Source: Nitrososphaerota archaeon (GTDB lineage Archaea; Thermoproteota; Nitrososphaeria; Nitrososphaerales; Nitrosopumilaceae). From it: 39,513 nt of DNA. Position numbers and translations under genes: made by a program. Numbering within the stretch: the first letter of the stretch is position 1; each line of letters starts with the position of its first letter. Below, piece after piece: positions 29,990-39,513 of the stretch. The stretch spans positions 1-39,513 of the forward strand of contig JAGWGA010000013.1 of the NCBI GenBank assembly GCA_028867675.1. The letters are read 5' to 3'. The notes under the pieces were generated by a model. That model searched no databases, was not told where the DNA came from, and worked only from the letters and a program-made list of their open reading frames with translations.

Positions 29990-30331
29990 TTACTTTTCTG
30001 AGAATTTTTCCCAGAGTCTTTGAATCTTTTGATCCATTGTAAATTTTTCAATTTTACAAGTGATTTCACCATCTTTGAATTTGATATCTATGCCTGAAAC
30101 TAGACTTTTGTAGTAACTCTCGTCAAGACCTTCAAGGGTTCGGACAACTTTAGTCTTTTTTACCAGTCCAAGATTTTCCAAGTTTTTTATCTTTCTATAT
30201 GTGGTAGAATTTGGAATTCCTAGATTATTTGATATCTCTTGCGCACTCATCTCATTTTTTGACAATGTAGAAAGAATTTTTCTGCTATATTCATCCCCCA
30301 AAATGGATAAAATTTCATCATCGTCTGTCAT
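29990..30331 (-). CDS. Winged-helix transcriptional regulator
   Basis: A 113-residue protein with an ArsR/TrmB-like winged helix: ILGDEYSRKILSTLSKNEMSAQEISNNLGIPNSTTYRKIKNLENLGLVKK, then a wing (TKVVRTLEGLDESYY). The C-terminus is a short beta/alpha tail (IDIKFKDGEITCKIEKF) that could dimerise. It ends in DQKIQRLWEKFSEK. Its ATG is two bases after the stop of the upstream membrane-protein gene, so the pair is co-transcribed. Such regulator plus small membrane protein pairs are common in archaea. Its target is unknown. Confidence 0.88.
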   Translation of the reverse strand: MTDDDEILSILGDEYSRKILSTLSKNEMSAQEISNNLGIPNSTTYRKIKNLENLGLVKKTKVVRTLEGLDESYYKSLVSGIDIKFKDGEITCKIEKFTMDQKIQRLWEKFSEK

Positions 30332-30333
30332 TT

Positions 30334-30606
30334 TCAGCTTTTCTTGACTGCAATAATCAATACAACAAATCCAGCTATCTCAAAGCCTTCTTCGATTATT
30401 TTTTGGAGATTCTCGTTTTGAAGAAACGCAAGAGCATACTCCATGACTGTTTCTCCAAGAACTAGAAGTGTGAAGCCTATTACAAGAAGAATCATTGGTT
30501 GATATTTTGTTCTCTTGAATGCCTTGGCTGCAAAGAATACTAGTAAAAATCCTACAATCAAATGTGCGGCAAGGAGAATATATTCGGTTATACCTGATTC
30601 TTCCAT
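30334..30606 (-). CDS. Three-helix membrane protein paired with winged-helix regulator (DUF7521-like)
   Basis: A 90-residue protein with three membrane helices (about residues 8-26, 38-56, 72-88) and a short basic loop (KAFKRTKYQP). It precedes the winged-helix gene by two bases. The size, helix pattern and regulator partner resemble the archaeal DUF7521 family, but this was not tested. It may be a membrane sensor or anti-regulator for its partner; that is inference. Confidence 0.75.
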   Translation of the reverse strand: MEESGITEYILLAAHLIVGFLLVFFAAKAFKRTKYQPMILLVIGFTLLVLGETVMEYALAFLQNENLQKIIEEGFEIAGFVVLIIAVKKS

Positions 30607-30648: not shown

Positions 30649-31206
30649 TTAATCTTCGCCTAATTCTTTGTCTACTTTGTCTCTGAGTGATTTGTAATTG
30701 GAAAATCTCTTATTCCAATGTGAAAAGAACTTGTATTCCTTAATTGCAACAATCAACAGAATTATTGCAAATATTATTGAAATTACGATAAAGACTCTCA
30801 ATCCTAATAATATCGGTGCAGTATGCTGACGAGCTCCTGACTGCATCATCATGGGTAATTCTCTAATTACTGTGCCATTTTGATCAACTAGTTGGAGATG
30901 CATTCCGGAAATACTGTGTGTACCTGTAAAATTTGGCCCACCCTGTCCTTGAAATCCTTGACCACCTTGTTGATATTCTAAATGTCTTATGTTGTAGTCT
31001 GGATGTCCAAGCAAAACTCCTCCTAATACCACTGCGACAGGTCCAAAAAATAATGCACTTGCAATAAATATCAAAAATAAACGTCTTGAACTGTTAGTGT
31101 GAGCTAAAAGTTCATCTAAGATTTTTAAAATATTCTCAGATTCTTTTTTATCGTCTTTATCTTCAGGTATGTCTTTTTCAGGATAATTGTTTTCAGGCTC
31201 TGACAT
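30649..31206 (-). CDS. Two-helix membrane protein with Gly/Gln-rich external loop
   Basis: A 185-residue protein. An acidic N-terminal part (PEKDIPEDKDDKKESEN) is cytosolic, followed by a membrane helix near residues 44-66. An external loop of about 65 residues contains GGQGFQGQGGPNF and an NFTGT glycosylation sequon. A second helix lies at about 132-156, then a basic tail. The Gly/Gln stretch is nearly the same at the DNA level as the repeats in the exoprotein gene at 35703, hinting at exchange or common selection. The gene is downstream of the winged-helix gene at 31244-31576 with a 37-base gap. Confidence 0.75.
   Translation of the reverse strand: MSEPENNYPEKDIPEDKDDKKESENILKILDELLAHTNSSRRLFLIFIASALFFGPVAVVLGGVLLGHPDYNIRHLEYQQGGQGFQGQGGPNFTGTHSISGMHLQLVDQNGTVIRELPMMMQSGARQHTAPILLGLRVFIVISIIFAIILLIVAIKEYKFFSHWNKRFSNYKSLRDKVDKELGED
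30938..30963 (-). repeat. GGQGFQG-encoding segment shared with 35703-35794
   Basis: On the minus strand this 26-base stretch differs at only a few positions from the repeat unit of the exoprotein gene. It encodes GQGFQGQGG. Confidence 0.6.
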
Positions 31207-31243: not shown

Positions 31244-31576
31244 CTAACTTTGTTCTTCATCATGTTTCTCCTTCCTAGGGAAAATATCTTCATATGGTTC
31301 TAAAATTAATTTGCAAAACTCTCTTCCCTTCTGAGTAACTCCGTATTTTATTATCTTCTTGTTTCCCCATGCTTGCTCTGTTCTCTTTATGAAACCTTTT
31401 TTCTCAAGACTTTCAAGTATGTCCTTATGTTTCATTAAATTCAAGCCACAATAGCTAAGAAGTGATGTCTGATTGAGATCACCAAATTCTGTTAATTTTA
31501 AAATTATATCTTTTCGTATGTAAATTCTATCTCTATATTCGTGTGACAAGTAATAGTGTGATGCAGTCCAAGTCAA
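31244..31576 (-). CDS. Winged-helix regulator divergent from the PepSY gene
   Basis: A 110-residue protein with a MarR/PadR-like or PF14947-like winged helix: KLTEFGDLNQTSLLSYCGLNLMKHKDILESLEKKGFIKRTEQ, then the wing KKIIKYGVTQKGREFCKLI, and an acidic/basic tail. The start is uncertain: TTG 31576 is the longest, and a second TTG lies eight codons further in. It faces the secreted PepSY gene across a 128-base region that holds the regulon dyad (31645-31664). Position makes it the best local candidate for the protein that binds these dyads, which is inference. Confidence 0.85.
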   Translation of the reverse strand: MTWTASHYYLSHEYRDRIYIRKDIILKLTEFGDLNQTSLLSYCGLNLMKHKDILESLEKKGFIKRTEQAWGNKKIIKYGVTQKGREFCKLILEPYEDIFPRKEKHDEEQS

Positions 31577-31644
31577 GTATTAAGCTTTATCGAAATTTTA
31601 TTTTTTGAGCACGAAATTAGTGCTAGTACATTTACCTTTCACTA

Positions 31645-31664
31645 ACAATGTTCACTGACAAAGT
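31645..31664. promoter_or_regulatory. Envelope-regulon dyad, copy 1
   Basis: ACAATGTTCACTGACAAAGT, a diverged copy of AC-N2-TGTTC-N2-GAACA-N2-GT. It precedes a TATA-like TTCTTTATTAATTAA and the PepSY gene. The flanking CACTA is shared with copies 2 and 3. Confidence 0.6.
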
Positions 31665-31704
31665 GCCGTAATTCTTTATTAATTAATCACTGATCCCATG
31701 GATC

Positions 31705-32250
31705 ATGAATACACAAGAACTGGTAAGAAACAAAAAGATGCTTGCCCTCATCATCGGTGTGGCAATATTTGCCACAGCAGGAGTGTCGGTAGCATCTGCA
31801 CAAACAGCAGACCCCAGTACTACCGGTCAAACAAATACACCACCACAAATCCAAGGTTCAATTGTATCTGAACAGTTACTTTTGTCTAGTGTAAAGACAG
31901 ATTTCTCCACTGCAGCAACAACTGCAGCAGGCGCAGTAACAAATGGTAAAGTGATAGGTGGAATGTTGACTGAGAAACAAGGATTCCTCGTGTACGCCTT
32001 TAGAGTAATTGACGACAAGAACATGGTTTATTCTGTGATTGTTGATCCAGGAAATGGAAGCGTACTATACACATCACCAGGTCACGCATTTTCAATGGGC
32101 GGCTTTGGAATGGGTCAAGGAGGAATGAGACATGGACACCATATGGGTGGCCAAGGATGGAATAAGCAAACACCATCATCTGGCGGAACAGCATCTCCAT
32201 CAGGTAGTACAAATCCGTCTGACTATACAACCCCAAGTGGATTACAATAG
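31705..32250 (+). CDS. Secreted PepSY-like protein
   Basis: A 181-residue protein with a signal peptide (hydrophobic residues about 12-30, ending VSVASA-QT). A PepSY-like domain lies at about 75-128: GKVIGGMLTEKQGFLVYAFRVID and VIVDPGNGSVLYTS. The low-complexity tail is rich in Gly, Met and His (MGGFGMGQGGMRHGHHMGGQGW), which could bind metal, then a Ser/Thr/Pro tail. PepSY domains are thought to inhibit proteases or act in envelope control. The gene carries a regulon dyad before its TATA box and faces a winged-helix regulator. Confidence 0.82.
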   Translation: MNTQELVRNKKMLALIIGVAIFATAGVSVASAQTADPSTTGQTNTPPQIQGSIVSEQLLLSSVKTDFSTAATTAAGAVTNGKVIGGMLTEKQGFLVYAFRVIDDKNMVYSVIVDPGNGSVLYTSPGHAFSMGGFGMGQGGMRHGHHMGGQGWNKQTPSSGGTASPSGSTNPSDYTTPSGLQ

Positions 32251-32305
32251 TAATCCATTTTTTACTTTTTATTCTTAAACAAAGATCAGAACAAAATCTT
32301 CACTA

Positions 32306-32325
32306 ACAATGTTCTTGAACAAGGT
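32306..32325. promoter_or_regulatory. Envelope-regulon dyad, copy 2
   Basis: ACAATGTTCTTGAACAAGGT, the best-formed copy, with perfect TGTTC/GAACA arms and AC/GT at the ends. A TATA-like ATTGTTTTAAC begins about 5 bases after it; the gene at 32365 is next. Confidence 0.65.
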
Positions 32326-32364
32326 TCGATAATTGTTTTAACTGTATCATTTTGAATAATTAAT

Positions 32365-32787
32365 GTGGTAATTGATATGCAATCTATCCAAAACATCAGT
32401 CATGTAAATTACTCTCTAGAAACATTCGAGTCATTTTGTGACGAAATTTTGCATTTGGATCCTAAAATAAGATTTGTTGGAATAATTGATGATAAAGGAA
32501 AACTGCTTACTAAAAATACAAGAAAAGGGTTAGAAGTTTTCATTGAGACCAAAGATCTAGAGATTCTTCTAATGGAAACCGCATTAGGGGTAAGGATGCG
32601 TAGAGAGCATGATGACCAACTTGGACCTGTAAACTTTACTATATCTTATGGTAGGAACATACTCTCTATAATATTTCCATTCAAGCAAGAAATGTTATGT
32701 GTCTCAGCTGAAAAAGAGATTGATTTTTCAAAAATTCCATTTGTTATACTACATCTCTTGGAGACAAGAATTGCAAAAAAGGTTTAG
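32365..32787 (+). CDS. Thaumarchaeal DUF6659-like cytosolic protein
   Basis: A 140-residue soluble protein: TFESFCDEILHLDPKIRFVGIIDDKGKLL, ETALGVRMRREHDDQLGPVNFTISYGRNILSIIFPF and a late LCVSAEK segment. This pattern (sensor-like alpha/beta fold similar to roadblock or profilin-like folds) is that of a family expanded in thaumarchaea, DUF6659 to my recollection. Function is unknown. The start is GTG 32365, or ATG 32377. The dyad copy 2 and a TATA box directly upstream place it in the same putative regulon as the exporter. The zinc-finger microprotein follows 20 bases downstream. Confidence 0.75.
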   Translation: MVIDMQSIQNISHVNYSLETFESFCDEILHLDPKIRFVGIIDDKGKLLTKNTRKGLEVFIETKDLEILLMETALGVRMRREHDDQLGPVNFTISYGRNILSIIFPFKQEMLCVSAEKEIDFSKIPFVILHLLETRIAKKV

Positions 32788-32807
32788 AACTCACATGAGA
32801 AAATAAA

Positions 32808-32948
32808 ATGTTTGATAAAGGGAAAGATTTCAAATGTAAGGAATGTGGGATGCAATTCTTGGATGATGTTAGATTAGAAAGACACTTCAGAGTTGCTCAT
32901 CCAACAAAACATGATGGATTTAGACAAAAATGGTATTGGGACAATTAA
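32808..32948 (+). CDS. 46-residue C2H2 zinc-finger microprotein
   Basis: ATG 32808 to TAA 32946-32948. The sequence FKCKECGMQFLDDVRLERHF and on to AH gives a classical C2H2 finger, C10-x2-C13-x12-H26-x4-H31, followed by a basic/aromatic tail (KHDGFRQKWYWDN). This is nearly the eukaryotic consensus, and single-finger proteins like this are known in thaumarchaea. It lies between the DUF6659-like gene and another zinc-binding microprotein, all on one strand with small gaps, so they may share the transcript from the dyad-2 promoter. Confidence 0.85.
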   Translation: MFDKGKDFKCKECGMQFLDDVRLERHFRVAHPTKHDGFRQKWYWDN

Positions 32949-32951
32949 GAT

Positions 32952-33116
32952 ATGATGGATTTTAAACTAGAACCAAGAGATATTGCAAGATTAAGTACAA
33001 TTGGAAACAATATTTGTAGAAAATGTAGTAATCCACTAGTTGAAGGGGATATTGTAATAAGAATTGGGGCAAGACCTACAAAATATTTTCATAAAGACTG
33101 TTTTAGACCTTACTGA
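32952..33116 (+). CDS. 54-residue zinc-binding microprotein
   Basis: ATG 32952 (or 32955) to TGA 33114-33116, three bases after the C2H2 gene. It has NICRKCSNPLVEGDIVIRIG and then YFHKDCFRPY: C22-x2-C25 and H47-x2-C50, a zinc-ribbon or LIM/PARP-finger-like arrangement. An N-terminal helix (EPRDIARLSTI) precedes the knuckle. It is probably co-transcribed with the C2H2 microprotein. Function is unknown; binding of nucleic acid or protein is possible. Together these two fill most of the gap between the genes at 32365 and 33311. Confidence 0.8.
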   Translation: MMDFKLEPRDIARLSTIGNNICRKCSNPLVEGDIVIRIGARPTKYFHKDCFRPY

Positions 33117-33160
33117 AATTTTTCATTAATAATTTTATATCTAAAATTCACTCTTCACTA

Positions 33161-33180
33161 ACAATGTTCTTGAACAAGGT
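33161..33180. promoter_or_regulatory. Envelope-regulon dyad, copy 3
   Basis: ACAATGTTCTTGAACAAGGT, identical over these 20 bases to copy 2 and with the same CACTA flank. It is followed by TTTGACAAG and a TATA-like GTTTTATGT, ahead of the exporter operon at 33311. Confidence 0.65.
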
Positions 33181-33214
33181 TTGACAAGTGTTTTATGTAA
33201 AATTTTTTAACTAA

Positions 33215-33228
33215 GATATCATGATATC
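33215..33228. promoter_or_regulatory. 14-bp perfect palindrome at the exporter-operon start site
   Basis: GATATCATGATATC is self-complementary over 14 bases. It lies about 20-30 bases after the presumed TATA box, so over the likely transcription start of the exporter operon. It is a candidate second operator. Confidence 0.45.
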
Positions 33229-33310
33229 ACATGCTTTGCAATTATGTAACTCCTATAGAGATTTCAGTGTATATGAAATTCTGTTGGATGAATTTTAAAG
33301 GGTATTAACT

Positions 33311-34057
33311 ATGAAAAAAAATACACAAAATTTGACAGTTGAAAAAAACATGGAAGACGAATCTAACGACAATTCTATCGCACTTCGAGTTGAAAATCTC
33401 ACCAAGATCTATAATACCTCTGCAGGAAGGGTGGTTGCTCTTGATAACGCAAGTTTTTCTATTAAAAAGGGAGAATTTGTTTCTATTGTGGGGCCTTCTG
33501 GCAGCGGCAAGTCTACTATACTAAATTTAGTTGGTGCACTTGATAGGCCTAGTAGTGGAAAAATCTTCATTGATGAAGTAGACATATTTTCCTTAACTGA
33601 TTCTGAAATCGCTACTATGAGAAACAGAAGTATTGGCTTTATCTTTCAGTCATTTAATTTGATTAATCGCACTACTGTTCATAAAAATGTAAAATTGCCT
33701 GGAATTATAGCTGGCATGTCAAACGATGTAGCAGATTATCGTGCCATGAAAATATTGGAAGCACTTGATATTGCTGGCAAGGCAAAACAAAAACCAGTGA
33801 ATCTTAGTGGTGGTCAACAACAAAGAGTTGCAATTGCCCGCTCTTTGATTAATAATCCAACTATACTATTAGCAGATGAGCCTACTGGAAACTTGGATAC
33901 AAAGACTGGCGATGATGTATTTGCAATGATGAAAAATCTTTCACACAAATTCAAACGTACTATTGTAATGGTAACACACAATCCAGAGTTGGCAGAATCT
34001 ACGGATAGATCCATATACCTACGAGACGGGAGGATAGAGAAAGATGTCGTCAATTAA
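33311..34057 (+). CDS. ABC transporter ATPase (MacB/LolD-like)
   Basis: The 248-residue ATPase has Walker A GPSGSGKS (residues 61-68), signature LSGGQQQR, Walker B ILLADEPTGNLDTKT, and H-loop VTHNPEL. The DEPTGNLD motif is typical of the MacB/LolD/FtsE subfamily that powers mechanotransmission permeases. About 25 N-terminal residues are extra and charged. It is the first gene of an operon ATPase-exoprotein-permease. The ATG lies about 90 bases after the probable transcript start, and the 3' end overlaps the next ORF by 14 bases. Confidence 0.94.
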   Translation: MKKNTQNLTVEKNMEDESNDNSIALRVENLTKIYNTSAGRVVALDNASFSIKKGEFVSIVGPSGSGKSTILNLVGALDRPSSGKIFIDEVDIFSLTDSEIATMRNRSIGFIFQSFNLINRTTVHKNVKLPGIIAGMSNDVADYRAMKILEALDIAGKAKQKPVNLSGGQQQRVAIARSLINNPTILLADEPTGNLDTKTGDDVFAMMKNLSHKFKRTIVMVTHNPELAESTDRSIYLRDGRIEKDVVN

Positions 34058-36206
34058 ACCGATCAAGTCTTTTACAAAAAGACTTGGTGTAAAAATAACA
34101 ATTCCAATACTGATCTTGATGCTTCTCGTACCTACGACACTTGTTTCTTTTAACGCATATGGGCAAACAACTACTACTACAACTACAACAACTGGTGTGC
34201 CTCCGCAGACACAAGACTGTTTTGCTCCACTTACTACTATACTTGATGCCACTTATGCTGGACCTGTAGTAGTTGATTCGTATTGGGTAGACCAAGGAAC
34301 GTCTTCTTCAACTGATATAACAAGTAATCCTGTCAAAAAGGAAATAGGTCCTGGAGAAGGACCATCAGTATTTGCTGTAGTCATGAATAATAGGAATTCA
34401 AACTTTCCAATTACATCCATCACTGCATTTCTAAACTTGCCATCTGGATTTGTAGCCACTGGGGAAAGCAAGAATCCCCAATTGCTTCAAAATTATAATC
34501 AAGCATCCGCAGTAGTCCATAAGGGAGGTACACAGGGACAACAGTTTGCTTTAGCAAATTATTATGGTCAAGTTCCAGTTGGAGGTTCATTTACTATGTA
34601 TTTTAACATAAACGTATTACCTTCTGCCCAAGTTGGTACTCTTTCTACTACAGTTGTTGCAAATTATGTACAAGTGGGAGTGGTTGGACAACAATGTTCT
34701 TCTGCACTACTTGATGTCCCATTTGTACTCCCAGGAAAAGTAGTATTGGATGCATCTGTAGTAACTCCAGATCTTGTTCCACAGAGTAAAAATACAGTTT
34801 CATTTGCAATTGAAAACAAAGGTACTGCTGATGCAACTGGAGTGGTAGCAACAATTGCAAGTCTTGGCAATTCTAAAGGTGCCACAGGGTCAAGTAGTAG
34901 CGGAGGTGCACTTGTGTTACAGTCAACGTCTACAGTTCTTGTAAATCTTGGACCAAGTACATTTAACATTGGAACAATACATCCAGGCTCAAAAGTTATA
35001 GTAAGTACTACTCTTTTCCCAGGAGCTGCTGCAAGTGGTTCTACACAAAATGCAGAACTTTCAATAAACTATCAAAATGCTTGGGGTAAACTCTTAACAG
35101 CTGATGTCAATACGGGACTTGTTATTCCACCAAATCCACCAGAATCTCTTAGCTTGTCGTATCTTGGAAATACTACAACTCCTTTGATTACTTCAGGCAT
35201 GTTAGATGACTTAAATTTTGCAGTTCAAAACAATAGTACTAATCCAATGTCTAATATTGTTGTCTCACTTGTACCACAATCCACTTCTGTATCTATAGTT
35301 GGTACATCTACTTGGACAATACAAAACATGAATCCTGGAGACAGACAGATATTGTCAACCAAGGTATATGCAGCAAATTCTCTTATCAACTCTCCATCTT
35401 CATTTACATTGACTGCAAACTATGTTTCAAAAGGACAATCACAAACAAACTCTCTTACACTTGGAACATTTGTTGTAGGAAACATCAAACTCCAAGTCTA
35501 TGATCTTACATCTACATCTGGGGCCAGTCCTGGTGTTACAGGTAATCTTCTAAATCAGGGAAGTACAACTGGATTGTTTACAACAATCCAACTTGCTCCT
35601 TCTCCACTACTTGATGCAATCAGAGCTGCAAGAATTGCAAATTTCACAAATAGTACTAATGGACAAGCATCAACATTTGCAGGTTCTAGTTCACAAGGAC
35701 AAGGCGGTGCCGGAGGTCAAGGATTCCAAGGACGTGGTGGCGGTGCCGGAGGTCAAGGATTCCAAGGACGTGGTGGCGGTGCCGGAGGTCAAGGTGGATT
35801 TGCACCGCAATTCATAGGAGATCTTTCACCTGATTCTCCAATTCCATTTAGTGTTCCTATTAGGGGAATAAATTCCCTATCTCCTGGAATGTATCCTGTA
35901 GCATTCAAAGTATTATATGCAGATGATCTGAAGAACTTTCATACTGTCATACTAAATGGTACGGTTGCTATTTCTGGCAAAGGTTCAGGACCTGTAGTGC
36001 GTCAAACATCAATTTTTGATAAGATACCGTTACCTATGCCGGAAATCACTATCCCAGCAATTGGAATTGCTGTAGCGATTGCAGTGACAATACTTGTAAT
36101 AAAAAGAAAAAGATCGAAAAATAAAAAACTAAAACTAGTGGCAAAAGGTGAAGACGACATAGTTTCGATATTCGATAGTGACAAAAAGAAAAAAAATGAA
36201 TCCTAA
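34044..36206 (+). CDS. Large secreted, membrane-anchored COG1361-like exoprotein of the exporter operon
   Basis: The 720-residue protein begins with a signal peptide (helix about residues 15-37 ending SFNAYG-QT) followed by a Thr run. Then come several beta-sandwich domains of the COG1361/CARDB type (VSFAIENKGTADATGVVATI, LNFAVQNNSTNPMSNIVVSL, VTGNLLNQGSTTGLFTTIQL). A Gly/Gln-rich repeat is near residues 550-585. A C-terminal helix (about 672-690) is followed by a strongly basic cytosolic tail. In archaea such proteins often accompany MacB-like ATPase/permease pairs and may form the outer part. Overlaps (14 bases before, 11-29 after) show coupling with both neighbours. Confidence 0.85.
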   Translation: MSSIKPIKSFTKRLGVKITIPILILMLLVPTTLVSFNAYGQTTTTTTTTTGVPPQTQDCFAPLTTILDATYAGPVVVDSYWVDQGTSSSTDITSNPVKKEIGPGEGPSVFAVVMNNRNSNFPITSITAFLNLPSGFVATGESKNPQLLQNYNQASAVVHKGGTQGQQFALANYYGQVPVGGSFTMYFNINVLPSAQVGTLSTTVVANYVQVGVVGQQCSSALLDVPFVLPGKVVLDASVVTPDLVPQSKNTVSFAIENKGTADATGVVATIASLGNSKGATGSSSSGGALVLQSTSTVLVNLGPSTFNIGTIHPGSKVIVSTTLFPGAAASGSTQNAELSINYQNAWGKLLTADVNTGLVIPPNPPESLSLSYLGNTTTPLITSGMLDDLNFAVQNNSTNPMSNIVVSLVPQSTSVSIVGTSTWTIQNMNPGDRQILSTKVYAANSLINSPSSFTLTANYVSKGQSQTNSLTLGTFVVGNIKLQVYDLTSTSGASPGVTGNLLNQGSTTGLFTTIQLAPSPLLDAIRAARIANFTNSTNGQASTFAGSSSQGQGGAGGQGFQGRGGGAGGQGFQGRGGGAGGQGGFAPQFIGDLSPDSPIPFSVPIRGINSLSPGMYPVAFKVLYADDLKNFHTVILNGTVAISGKGSGPVVRQTSIFDKIPLPMPEITIPAIGIAVAIAVTILVIKRKRSKNKKLKLVAKGEDDIVSIFDSDKKKKNES
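35703..35794 (+). repeat. 36-bp tandem repeat encoding 12-residue Gly/Gln-rich units
   Basis: Units start at 35703, 35739 and 35775 (the last is incomplete). They are identical at the DNA level and encode GGAGGQGFQGRG. Identity points to recent expansion inside the exoprotein gene. Confidence 0.9.
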
Positions 36207-37437
36207 AGATATTTTTTTATTAGCTTTCGAGGCATTAGTTGATAGGAAAGTAAGAACAGTCCTGACCATACTGATGGTTGTTCTTGGAAGTAGTCTTGTT
36301 GTAATATTAAATGGACTAAGTGCAGGTCAAGCTGCTTTCTTGGAACAACAATTTAACACTTTGGCTGCTAACGTTCTTTTTGTAGGGAGTGGACAACGTT
36401 CATTCAGTTCTTTTGCAACTTCTACAAGTAATTCTTTGATAATAAATAATGTAGTTCTGGCAAAAATCAAATCTCTTCCAAATGTGTCTGACGCTATACC
36501 AGAATATACTGGATCTGTTCAGATGAATGTTGAAGGAAATACTCAACGTGCATCTATTACCTCAATTGATCCATCAAAGTTAGTAGTTGAACTACCAAAT
36601 CTTCAATATGTTGATGGTTCTACAATAAAACCCGGAGATCGCTCATCAGCTATTGTTGGTGATACTATAGTGAATCCACCAGGTGCATCTACCCCATTTC
36701 TTACACTTGGTGAAACAATAAAGGCAACCGCGACTTATTCTGATTCAAGTGGATCACATACTGTAGTAAAAAATTTTGTTATTACTGGAATACTAAAACC
36801 GTCTGGTAATGCTGGAATAGATCGTTCAGTTATCATAAATCTTGATGCTGGTAATGAATTACTACACAAATTAAACAGGTATGATCAGATAATAGTTGCA
36901 GCTACCACTCCTGATGACGTGGATACAGTACAAGGAGAATTGACGTCTACATTTGGGAAAACTCTTGGTGCTACAACACCAAAAGCTTTGATGGCAGTAA
37001 GAGTACAAGCTGCCAGCGGAAATAATGCCTTTATCCTAATGGTTGGAATCATTGCACTTGTTGTGGGTGCAGTTGGAATTGTTACTACTTTGTATAATTC
37101 CGTTACAGAAAGAATTAGAGAAATAGGTACAATGAAAGCAATAGGGGCACAGAATACTGAAATACTTGCTCTCTTTATTGTTGAAGCCGCACTGATTGGA
37201 ATAATTGGAGCTTCATTAGGAACCATCATCGGAATAGTTGGTGGTTACATACTATCTATTTTTACAACAACTTCTCCTGCAGGAGGAGGTCCGCCTATAC
37301 ATATACCTCCAATATTTGTTCCAATGGACTTGATCAAAGTCTGGCTACTCTCATTATTCCTAAGTGTTCTAGCTGGAATGTATCCTGCATGGAAAGCATC
37401 AAAGCTTTCTCCAATGGTTGCATTAAGAAGAGAATAA
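36178..37437 (+). CDS. MacB/FtsX-like ABC permease
   Basis: The 419-residue permease has the MacB fold: an N-terminal helix (about residues 25-45, TVLTILMVVLGSSLVVIL), a large extracytoplasmic domain of about 240 residues, then three helices near residues 283-306, 331-358 and 384-404. The FtsX-type segment VTERIREIGTMKAIGAQNTEILALF is present, as is the terminal YPAWKASKLSPMVALRRE. It pairs with the ATPase at 33311 to drive export or envelope work by mechanotransmission. The GTG start at 36178 overlaps the exoprotein gene by 29 bases; ATG 36196 (MNPKDIF) is an alternative and perhaps better. Confidence 0.93.
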   Translation: MTKRKKMNPKDIFLLAFEALVDRKVRTVLTILMVVLGSSLVVILNGLSAGQAAFLEQQFNTLAANVLFVGSGQRSFSSFATSTSNSLIINNVVLAKIKSLPNVSDAIPEYTGSVQMNVEGNTQRASITSIDPSKLVVELPNLQYVDGSTIKPGDRSSAIVGDTIVNPPGASTPFLTLGETIKATATYSDSSGSHTVVKNFVITGILKPSGNAGIDRSVIINLDAGNELLHKLNRYDQIIVAATTPDDVDTVQGELTSTFGKTLGATTPKALMAVRVQAASGNNAFILMVGIIALVVGAVGIVTTLYNSVTERIREIGTMKAIGAQNTEILALFIVEAALIGIIGASLGTIIGIVGGYILSIFTTTSPAGGGPPIHIPPIFVPMDLIKVWLLSLFLSVLAGMYPAWKASKLSPMVALRRE

Positions 37438-37466
37438 AATACAAATTTTAAGTATATTTTTTCTAA

Positions 37467-37697
37467 TTACTTTATCATTGATCTTAGCTTACCTGGAGTT
37501 GCCTTCATGATTTCATCTTTAGTGTATGGCCTGTTCAATCTTTTTTGGATTAGAACTATGCTCATTCCTCTTGGTATCTCCTTTCTTGAACTCAAAAAAC
37601 TCTGATATCTTTCTTTTTCCTCTTCAGTACAAAATACCGTTTCATAATTACTGGATATCCAGACTTGTTCAAATACTTCATCGTTAATTTGCATCAT
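37467..37697 (-). CDS. Small hypothetical protein
   Basis: A 76-residue soluble protein, MMQINDEVFEQVWISSNYETVF at the start, with an acidic/basic helix (TEEEKERYQSFLSSRKEI) and a C-terminal segment RLNRPYTKDEIMKATPGKLRSMIK. It has no recognised domain. It is the only minus-strand gene inside the exporter region and lies 38 bases before the dyad of the next gene, divergent from it. It could be controlled by the same dyad (37736-37755). Function is unknown. Confidence 0.7.
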   Translation of the reverse strand: MMQINDEVFEQVWISSNYETVFCTEEEKERYQSFLSSRKEIPRGMSIVLIQKRLNRPYTKDEIMKATPGKLRSMIK

Positions 37698-37735
37698 GGC
37701 ATATCTATGTTAAAGAATCTATAAGGAATTGTGAT

Positions 37736-37755
37736 ACATTGTTCAGTAACAAAGT
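37736..37755. promoter_or_regulatory. Envelope-regulon dyad, copy 4
   Basis: ACATTGTTCAGTAACAAAGT keeps TGTTC-N4-ACAA-R-GT but not the full right arm. It precedes a TATA-like CTTTATCCCTAAATA and the gene at 37792. The small minus-strand gene ending at 37697 is on the other side. Confidence 0.55.
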
Positions 37756-37791
37756 TACTTTATCCCTAAATACCCAGAAAAAAATGTTAAA

Positions 37792-38481
37792 GTGTTGAAT
37801 TTAAGATTTTTTGCACTTTTAGGAATAATATTCATTGCGGGGTCAATATTTGCAGTGCAGGCCAATGCACAATATCAAGGTCAATACGGCTCACAACAAA
37901 ATCAAATCCCACGTACTCCTGTAAATGGCGCCTATTCCAACTCTGACTTTGGAGTGCAAATAACACTCCCTGATGGATGGAATGGTTTTGAAATGAAACG
38001 ATCTTCTGGAACCACTTCTGTCATGGCATTTCCCGGTGGAATGCCTACTCCTGGACAACGTCCTCCAGTAATGATGACGATATCAATGCAACCAAAAACT
38101 GCCACATCATCTCCACAATATATGCCACAACGTTTACCACAGAATGAAACCTGTAATACTGATTCTACAAACATGAAGACTATCAATACGATGAATGTTA
38201 ATGAAGTGATAGTGGACTGTACTGGACCTATGACAATGAAGGCTAAATATGAAATAGCACAGACTGACTCCGCATACATTGTACTTGGATTTAGAGCCAA
38301 TCCTTCTTCAGGCTATGATTCTCAAGTTGCCACATTTGATTCTGCAGTTAATACACTTCAAGTGGCAAATGCCATTGCACCTCCAGCCGTACCTGAATTC
38401 CCAATTGCTATTCTAGTCTTGATTGTTGCGACATTCTCAATAGTTGTGATTTCAAGAAAAACTCATGCGTTAAAACTCTAG
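37792..38481 (+). CDS. Secreted protein with PEFP C-terminal membrane anchor
   Basis: The 229-residue protein has a signal peptide (hydrophobic about residues 5-22, ending VQANA-QY) and a Gln/Tyr-rich start. An extracytoplasmic domain follows (YSNSDFGVQITLPDGWNGFE, like PsbP/Mog1-type folds), with Met/Pro-rich parts and two Cys (NETC, VDC). The C-terminus is PAVPEFPIAILVLIVATFSIVV followed by SRKTHALKL. The PEF motif, hydrophobic helix and basic end match archaeal PEF-CTERM-like sorting signals. The start is GTG 37792 or TTG 37795. It has dyad copy 4 upstream and precedes the second ATPase by 51 bases. Confidence 0.85.
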   Translation: MLNLRFFALLGIIFIAGSIFAVQANAQYQGQYGSQQNQIPRTPVNGAYSNSDFGVQITLPDGWNGFEMKRSSGTTSVMAFPGGMPTPGQRPPVMMTISMQPKTATSSPQYMPQRLPQNETCNTDSTNMKTINTMNVNEVIVDCTGPMTMKAKYEIAQTDSAYIVLGFRANPSSGYDSQVATFDSAVNTLQVANAIAPPAVPEFPIAILVLIVATFSIVVISRKTHALKL

Positions 38482-38532: not shown

Positions 38533-39309
38533 ATGACAAAATCTATTGGTGTGCAAAATGATGAGAAAAATACTAACGATGTAAGTAACACCAAGTCTGA
38601 AAAATCTATGCAATCCATTATAGATGATTTTGTATTAAAAACTGAGCATGTTTACAAGACATTTGATTCTGCAGCAGGTAAAGTTATTGCACTAGAAGAT
38701 ATAAACTTCAAAGTAAAAAGGGGTCAGTTTGTATCGATAATGGGCCCATCTGGGAGTGGTAAATCTACACTTCTCAATATCCTTGGAGCGCTAGACAGGC
38801 CATCATCTGGCAAAGTCATCATCAATGGATATGACATATTTTCACTTGCAGATTCTGAAATTGCAACCATGAGAAATCGTCTAATAGGATACATCTTTCA
38901 ATCGTATAATCTGGTAAATAGATCCACAGTTGAGATTAATGTCAAACTTCCTGCAATCATAGCAGGAATGTCTACATCTGAGGCAAACTCTAGAGCAAAG
39001 AAAATTTTAGAAGAACTTGGAATTGCAGACAAGGCAAAACAAAAACCATCTAATCTAAGTGGTGGTCAACAACAAAGAGTTGCAATTGCAAGGTGTTTGA
39101 TTAACAATCCAGCAATAATTATGGCAGATGAACCTACGGGAAACTTGGATACAAAAACTGGTCAAGACATATTTGATATGCTAAAGCTACTATCACATAA
39201 GTTTGGACGTACTATATTGATGGTTACCCACAATCCTGAACTTGCACAATTAACAGATAGAACAGTTCTGATAAAAGATGGTAGAATTGAAAACGATATT
39301 ATGAATTAA
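38533..39309 (+). CDS. Second MacB/LolD-like ABC ATPase (orphan paralogue)
   Basis: A 258-residue ATPase close in sequence to the one at 33311: identical or near identical in GPSGSGKST, LNLVGALDRPSSGK/LNILGALDRPSSGK, DSEIATMRNR, KAKQKPxNLSGGQQQRVAIAR, DEPTGNLDTKTG and VTHNPELA. The differences are scattered, so it is a real old duplicate. It also has about 35 extra charged N-terminal residues. No permease follows in the window; next is a gene on the other strand. It may use the upstream permease (36178), or act with one elsewhere. Two AACATAAAATA direct repeats lie just before the start. Confidence 0.93.
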   Translation: MTKSIGVQNDEKNTNDVSNTKSEKSMQSIIDDFVLKTEHVYKTFDSAAGKVIALEDINFKVKRGQFVSIMGPSGSGKSTLLNILGALDRPSSGKVIINGYDIFSLADSEIATMRNRLIGYIFQSYNLVNRSTVEINVKLPAIIAGMSTSEANSRAKKILEELGIADKAKQKPSNLSGGQQQRVAIARCLINNPAIIMADEPTGNLDTKTGQDIFDMLKLLSHKFGRTILMVTHNPELAQLTDRTVLIKDGRIENDIMN

Positions 39310-39402: not shown

Positions 39403-39513
39403 TTAATTTTGATTGGTTACTATGGTTATGTGTCTGTGATATTTGTTTGGTAAATCCATTGCCATGAATGTGTGTTGATATTTGTTTGGTAAATCCATTG
39501 CCATGAATGTGTG
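39403..39513 (-). CDS. C-terminus of a repeat protein (partial, cut by window edge)
   Basis: On the minus strand a frame is open from the edge to TAA at 39403-39405. It reads HTFMAMDLPNKYQ twice (second copy ending in H), then RHITIVTNQN. The 39-bp DNA period equals 13 residues, and the forward frames have stops inside the repeat. This supports coding on the minus strand. Only 36 residues are seen, so the protein type is unknown. Confidence 0.5.
   Translation of the reverse strand, partial: HTFMAMDLPNKYQHTFMAMDLPNKYHRHITIVTNQN
39438..39513. repeat. 39-bp tandem repeat at the right edge
   Basis: Two adjacent units start at 39438 and 39477. The second is identical to the first as far as the window goes (37 bases). 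There is no spacer, so it is not CRISPR-like. Confidence 0.9.

Follow-up and report, generated by a model that had tools for sequence, protein, structure and literature searches.

Four similar palindromic sites, each in front of a different gene or operon, raise the question of what they control and which protein acts on them. They lie in a stretch of 39,513 nucleotides (nt; hereafter the window), which is bases 1-39513 of contig 44 of a 1.74-Mb draft genome (G000). The host belongs to Candidatus Nitrosotalea, a genus of acidophilic ammonia-oxidizing archaea, as placed via named relatives. A reading of the letters alone (the sequence-only reading) had taken the four dyads for the switch of one regulated envelope module and had suspected the regulator among two nearby winged-helix proteins. 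We propose that the protein of the open reading frame (ORF) 31244-31576, here called wHTH-A (wHTH, winged helix-turn-helix), binds the dyads and activates an envelope regulon under the control of a membrane protein encoded next to it. From the sequence comparisons described below we give this reading a probability of about 0.68.

The four dyads are exactly where the sequence-only reading had placed them (Table 1). Those at 32306 and 33161 are identical, and three copies share the flank CACTA. The dyad consensus is ACNNTGTTNNNNAACANNGT, usually with CASTA as the 5′ flank. Genome-wide site counts were obtained by pattern scans, with the reversed pattern as control. Exact copies of ACNNTGTTNNNNAACANNGT number 7 in the host genome (reversed control: 0) and 190 across the 37 Nitrosotalea genomes of our within-genus sample (reversed control: 19). 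The sites lie before TATA boxes of mostly secreted or membrane-protein genes, which is what a scan of the genome and its relatives had been predicted to find. With up to three mismatches ACNNTGTTCNNGAACANNGT occurs 10 times in the window versus 2.3 expected, and none of 100 shuffles reaches 10. The core TGTTCNNNNACAANGT is indeed common to all four dyads, and only 8 exact copies exist in the whole genome: 4 in the window, 1 at C44:40707 (1.2 kb beyond the window end) and 3 within about 5 kb of contig 213. The strand bias of this core (8 plus, 0 minus), which made the copies appear to point the same way, is an artefact of applying an asymmetric consensus to a symmetric site.

Sites aligned from many genomes give the directional signature CASTA - ACNNTGTTNNNNRACANNGT - 5 nt - AANNNNTTWW, that is, palindrome, TFB recognition element (BRE, the AA) and TATA box. 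Among 29 palindromes collected irrespective of TATA, 26 have AANNNNTTWW on one of their sides, with a downstream distance of precisely 5 nt. In an offset scan from 0 to 39, offset 5 gave 89 matches among 184 directional reads, and none of the remaining offsets gave more than 4; as part of these loci was collected with the directional pattern itself, 26/29 is the unbiased figure. The near-constant TATA distance of the sequence-only reading is in fact exact to the base, although the perfectly spaced TATA of the dyad at 37736 sits on the minus strand. The commonest distance from the TATA reference base to the start codon is 25-28 nt, the arrangement expected of leaderless archaeal transcripts. 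The MacB-like exporter operon, which starts about 110 nt from its TATA, was an apparent exception and is resolved, here and in most Nitrosotalea genomes examined, by a short leader ORF. With a fixed promoter position, kept before the same genes in relatives, the dyads are almost certainly the operators of one regulon.

Across the order-wide sample of 201 genomes, Nitrosotalea and one further genus of its family (G079) carry the directional signature; elsewhere it turns up sporadically. Equally exact spacing to BRE and TATA would be expected of a core-promoter element, so that the palindrome might be a constitutive extended promoter element or a nucleoid-protein site and no regulated operator. 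This is highly improbable, however, because only about a dozen promoters per genome carry the palindrome, before a coherent set of genes, because Nitrosotalea and one related genus have it but most of the family does not, and because distant lineages link it to one regulator gene. Multi-copy matches in Nitrososphaeraceae g47/g53 (ACAATGTTAACTTACAACGTTAATCAAGTTCTTAA) were left uncounted, being a different sequence class before other genes. In g47/g53 (L098-L103, L179, L180) a related palindrome-like multi-copy promoter sequence, ACAATGTTAACTYACAACGTTAATCAAGTTCTTAA, precedes several small membrane-protein genes and may represent a sister regulon under another wHTH-A paralogue.

When up to 2 mismatches are allowed and a downstream gene is required, roughly a dozen operator promoters are counted in the host genome, most of them before genes of secreted or membrane proteins. 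Four are in the window: C44:31645 before a PepSY gene, 32306 before a DUF6659 gene, 33161 before the leader ORF and the exporter, and 37721 (minus) before the gene of a protein of 76 amino acids (aa). The first three targets are those of the sequence-only reading. It had assigned the fourth dyad to the secreted protein on the plus strand and had not listed the 76-aa gene, which is this dyad's main target. On the minus strand there is a perfect-spacing TATA, ACTTTGTTACTGAACAATGT-ATCAC-AATTCCTTAT, towards the 76-aa gene. The 76-aa protein has 7 homologues (47-75% identity), and a site of this kind precedes the gene of each; in Ca. Nitrosotalea devanaterra (G035, LN890280) the gene and its site are about 0.8 Mb away from the MacB cluster. 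Since seven other genomes carry the site in front of the 76-aa gene, the dyad belongs to this gene first. On the plus strand, facing the PEFG-CTERM gene, TAAATA stands at the canonical place and the signature has 2 mismatches; the PEFG homologue of N. bavarica has a degenerate half-site only. We rejected the dyad as a promoter of the PEFG gene only, because the perfect signature sits on the other strand. Possibly the operator is bidirectional, with the PEFG gene at most a secondary, divergent and uncertain target.

Clustering of the genes downstream of the operator across the genus gives the PepSY gene (27 sites), the MacB operon (22), the DUF6659 gene (13), a further winged-helix gene, wHTH-B (9), the 76-aa gene (8) and an Ig-like secreted protein (8), plus others. 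The same mainly envelope or secreted genes recur genus-wide behind an exactly positioned site, which argues for the single regulated envelope module that had been proposed. New in comparison with the sequence-only reading are the membrane partner, the second cluster on contig 213, the leader peptide of the MacB operon and the winged-helix gene within the regulon. In the vicinity of the contig-213 cluster there is a CopC-like gene, and also a putative multicopper oxidase (both assigned by eye).

wHTH-A reaches the gathering score of HTH_45 (PF14947; 28.7 bits vs 25.5), a family matched by 14 of 14 homologues at E<=0.001. It does not belong to the PadR or MarR families proper: the window protein scores 17.7 bits vs 24.6 for MarR, and PadR is matched by 2 of 14 homologues. 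The predicted structure is a winged helix without a transmembrane helix (mean predicted local distance difference test, pLDDT, 81). A fold search returns PadR/MarR dimers as nearest, and a sequence search of the PDB gave no significant match. The HTH segment NQTxLLSYCGLNLxKH is almost invariant.

wHTH-A homologues, often with an adjoining palindrome, occur in Nitrosocaldus, Nitrososphaera, Nitrosopumilales and other lineages; in several of these the homologue faces a PepSY gene. A wHTH-A homologue is found within about 50-700 nt of every one of the sporadic single sites, namely those of Nitrosocaldus (G053), H03B2 (G096), genus g27 (genomes G140 and G186) and Nitrososphaera (G139). Outside Nitrosotalea the palindrome (<=1 mismatch) is present at 13 of 24 wHTH-A loci versus 1 of 25 control loci around wHTH-B (Fisher test, P 1e-4). 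In a set of 47 wHTH-A loci (317 kb), which is nearly all non-Nitrosotalea and overlaps the 24 loci, 15 of 15 palindromes (<=1 mismatch) are within -1000 to +1500 of wHTH-A, with 0.7 expected. These tests count related genomes as independent and the loci share descent; the P values are therefore too small and serve as guides only. Next to wHTH-A, Nitrosocaldus SKYG19, Nitrososphaera LEAR1, UBA218 and RBC_AOA1 encode a PepSY-type protein; at other loci the neighbour is a different secreted protein on the opposite side of the operon. Since the adjoining target varies in type and lies upstream or downstream, wHTH-A is the constant. We consider it very probable that wHTH-A binds the operator, and of the two proteins suspected by the sequence-only reading this is the one that stands.

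It is improbable, in our view, that another winged-helix protein is the binder and wHTH-A a mere neighbour. An operator with perfect spacing precedes wHTH-B (MSKQQ..., G000:C213) itself in the host and in several other Nitrosotalea genomes, which is compatible with autoregulation. wHTH-B homologues (about 50% identity), however, occur throughout the family in genomes without the operator, and G096 has the operator but no wHTH-B match. For the other protein suspected before, encoded at 29990-30331, the loci examined yielded homologues from just three Nitrosotalea genomes, and none turned up at the 17 distant motif-bearing or wHTH-A loci checked. Both were rejected. The genes 29990-30331 and 30334-30606 (minus strand) form a second winged-helix/membrane-protein pair (ArsR/TrmB-like HTH and DUF7521, PF24365), which adjoins the wHTH-A operon and occurs in few Nitrosotalea genomes. 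A stand-alone wHTH-A paralogue (G000:C158:46071-46364, L198; 57% identity) has neither a membrane partner nor a palindrome beside it; many Nitrosopumilaceae genomes encode relatives of this paralogue.

Several observations speak against wHTH-A as the regulator of an envelope regulon. About two thirds of the non-Nitrosotalea loci in the 47-locus set have no recognisable palindrome nearby; there either a drift of specificity or a shift of the site would have to be assumed. Within Nitrosotalea, genome G001 (78% complete) contains 8 palindromes and no wHTH-A match, and G028 (84% complete) contains 3 palindromes and a marginal match only. Every genome encodes other winged-helix proteins. Finally, some targets (DUF6659, wHTH-B, the 76-aa protein) are not envelope proteins.

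We infer that wHTH-A probably acts by activation, which we favour over repression because the site abuts the BRE without overlap and its distance does not vary by even a single base. As a repressor next to the BRE, wHTH-A would block TFB or the polymerase until a membrane-relayed signal frees it. Many PadR/MarR proteins are repressors, and the fold of wHTH-A matches these; in addition, the divergent layout of regulator and target is typical of repressor modules. Nevertheless, we judge repression unlikely. The operator stops before BRE and TATA and overlaps neither these nor the start, and a spacing fixed to the single base is required by contact with the initiation complex, not by simple blocking.

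The gene of the membrane partner lies directly downstream of nearly all wHTH-A homologues with intact frame and enough contig. Both ends of the protein are conserved (N-terminal hhDELhhHhNxT[RK], C-terminal FFxxWNxRFxxYxSxxxxIDxEL), and the loop varies from about 8 to 130 aa. None of the members tested reached a Pfam or NCBIfam cutoff. We think it likely that this protein controls wHTH-A. Alternatively, it could be a co-transcribed effector, a stress membrane protein and no sensor, and wHTH-A would sense a cytoplasmic cue, for example via its cysteines C34 (invariant) and C79 (nearly invariant). The loop of just about 8 residues in many lineages fits this as well. We find the effector role doubtful, since the conservation sits in the cytoplasmic ends, the part able to touch wHTH-A, and since the membrane-protein gene follows wHTH-A and not the targets.

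We suggest the following mechanism for activation under membrane control. A wHTH-A dimer would sit on the 20-bp palindrome just upstream of BRE and TATA, about 40-60 bp before the start of the leaderless transcript, and would activate most likely by aiding TBP/TFB assembly. Upon an envelope change, sensed by the variable loop or by the hairpin itself, the membrane partner could retain or free wHTH-A via its conserved cytoplasmic ends. The outputs would be the secreted PepSY proteins, the MacB/Lol-like exporter with its large extracytoplasmic partner, Ig-like secreted proteins and small membrane peptides, and further the DUF6659 protein, the 76-aa protein and a second-tier winged-helix regulator. 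Many outputs are secreted, G/M/H-rich or export-related, which suggests envelope or metal stress. We also lean slightly towards the view that wHTH-A and its two-helix partner are an undescribed, class-wide signalling pair of ammonia-oxidizing archaea. The ancestral output would be the adjoining PepSY-type or other secreted protein, and in Nitrosotalea it would have grown into an envelope-stress regulon with roughly a dozen promoters, including those of an exporter and of a second-tier regulator.

The individual genes of the window add some detail. The PepSY gene has the same operator in many Nitrosotalea genomes; PF03413 is matched by 8 of 9 aligned homologues (best E 4.5e-08), with the window member below the Pfam cutoff. 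The leader ORF of the MacB operon is found in most Nitrosotalea genomes examined, with 19-25 codons, a start 25-29 nt after TATA and usually the ending ...DEF-stop, and may couple or attenuate exporter translation. The permease matches the lolCE model at 5.7e-26, yet far under its cutoff. Two tiny CxxC-type zinc-finger ORFs (32810-33115, plus) separate the DUF6659 gene from the MacB promoter and are probably co-transcribed with DUF6659. Downstream of the PEFG gene a second MacB-like ABC (ATP-binding cassette) ATPase (38533-39309, plus) has no permease gene beside it. Head-to-tail repeats, each about 39 bp (window 39430-39513; L009 11430-11690), close a secreted fibronectin-like gene at its 3′ end and continue into a stretch of N.

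Table 1. Features of the wHTH-A locus and promoters of the host regulon (contig 44, C44, carries the window)
Feature	Position	Strand	Remarks
Membrane partner	30649..31206	-	cytoplasmic N-terminal helix, first transmembrane helix, ~75-aa extracytoplasmic loop, second transmembrane helix, conserved C-terminal helix
wHTH-A, proposed regulator, 101 aa	31247..31549 (ORF 31244-31576)	-	PadR/MarR-like winged helix (HTH_45); TTG start inferred from alignment
Operator of PepSY gene	31645..31664	+	ACAATGTTCACTGACAAAGT, 1 mismatch to palindrome; CACTA 5′ flank
BRE/TATA of PepSY gene	31670-31682	+	AATTCTTTATTAA
Secreted PepSY-domain protein, 181 aa	31705..32250	+	G/M/H-rich C-terminus; start 27 nt past TATA reference point
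Operator of DUF6659 gene	32306..32325	+	
BRE/TATA of DUF6659 gene	32331-32340	+	AATTGTTTTA
DUF6659-family protein	32365..32787	+	PF20364 E=3.7e-09
Operator of MacB-like exporter operon	33161..33180	+	
BRE/TATA of MacB-like exporter operon	33186-33195	+	AAGTGTTTTA
Leaderless leader-peptide ORF, 25 codons	33221-33298	+	MISHALQLCNSYRDFSVYEILLDEF; between MacB promoter and exporter ATPase
MacB/LolD-like ABC ATPase	33311..34057	+	PF00005 E=6e-35
720-aa extracytoplasmic protein, exporter operon	34044..36206	+	no Pfam or NCBIfam family
MacB/LolC-like FtsX permease	36178..37437	+	PF02687 1.5e-20, PF12704 9e-14
76-aa protein, no known family	37467..37697	-	exact-spacing TATA, start at 25 nt
Operator, principal direction minus	37736..37755	-	BRE/TATA within 37721-37730
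PEFG-CTERM secreted protein	37792..38481	+	TIGR04296 3.7e-07; TTG start possible at 37795
Small ORF	C44:40688	-	host regulon promoter
Second PepSY gene	C44:40806		host regulon promoter
Secreted 216-aa protein	C213:42202	-	host regulon promoter
Ig-like secreted protein	C213:43295		host regulon promoter
Bidirectional palindrome	C213:47311/47326 (L010 14000-14918)	both	exact-spacing TATA on each strand; wHTH-B one way, G/H/M-rich membrane protein the other
Secreted protein	C174:3454		host regulon promoter
Secreted 334-aa protein	C158:44939		host regulon promoter

Ammonia-oxidizing archaea are globally important, and signalling from membrane to gene is poorly understood in this archaeal group. In the literature searched (open-licence only) we found no defined transcription-factor regulon in ammonia-oxidizing archaea and no description of the wHTH-A/membrane-protein pair or its regulon; the Nitrosotalea genome papers mention neither PepSY nor MacB nor such a regulator. 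With the operator and its geometry, the list of genes, a probable regulator and its probable membrane partner now named, a specific envelope response of an acid-soil nitrifier becomes directly testable.

How does the system compare with known ones? The exporter resembles the MacB/LolCDE-type (type VII) ABC exporters in its ATPase and FtsX/MacB-PCD permease. It differs in that the operon has no adaptor of known family and encodes instead the 720-aa extracytoplasmic protein of no known family. The best fold matches of wHTH-A are with PadR-s2/MarR regulators (LmrR, Rv3488; template modelling score about 0.7, E about 1e-4). These regulators are dimeric palindrome binders and often control exporters. 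Identity to wHTH-A is only about 15-26%, however, and wHTH-A is paired with a membrane protein. With the Sso10a proteins, small winged-helix architectural chromatin proteins (PMC4941522), wHTH-A shares size and domain, and it matches the Sso10a model at E=1e-6. Yet it stays below the NCBIfam cutoff (28.7 bits vs 60), the fold search prefers PadR/MarR and a specific operator is implied.

As a membrane-linked regulator, the pair resembles ArnR and ArnR1 of Sulfolobus in design. These are membrane-bound one-component regulators that activate genes of surface structures; ArnR binds promoter fragments from -38 to -79 and from -41 to -82, with inverted-repeat boxes at the flaB promoter (PMC6396743). 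Both systems are archaeal and couple an HTH function to two transmembrane helices. The operator here also lies close to the ArnR-bound promoter region, upstream of the BRE of mostly secreted or membrane-protein genes. In ArnR, however, HTH, HAMP/sensor region and membrane helices are one chain, whereas here two adjacent genes are involved and wHTH-A, with about 100 aa, has no transmembrane helix. A two-protein design is known from the co-component transmembrane transcription regulators (coTTRs; ToxRS, VtrAC type), in which a winged-helix transcription factor works with a membrane-anchored partner (PMC13042144). There the factor itself spans the membrane and has a periplasmic domain, and the partner is a single-pass protein with a periplasmic domain; wHTH-A is predicted to be soluble, without a transmembrane helix in its model, and its partner forms a hairpin of two helices whose loop is optional. 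Because its DNA-binding protein has no transmembrane helix, the pair lacks the defining feature of both ArnR and the coTTRs. If true, this split design, with DNA-binding protein and membrane hairpin encoded by separate adjacent genes, would be an added form of membrane-to-gene signalling.

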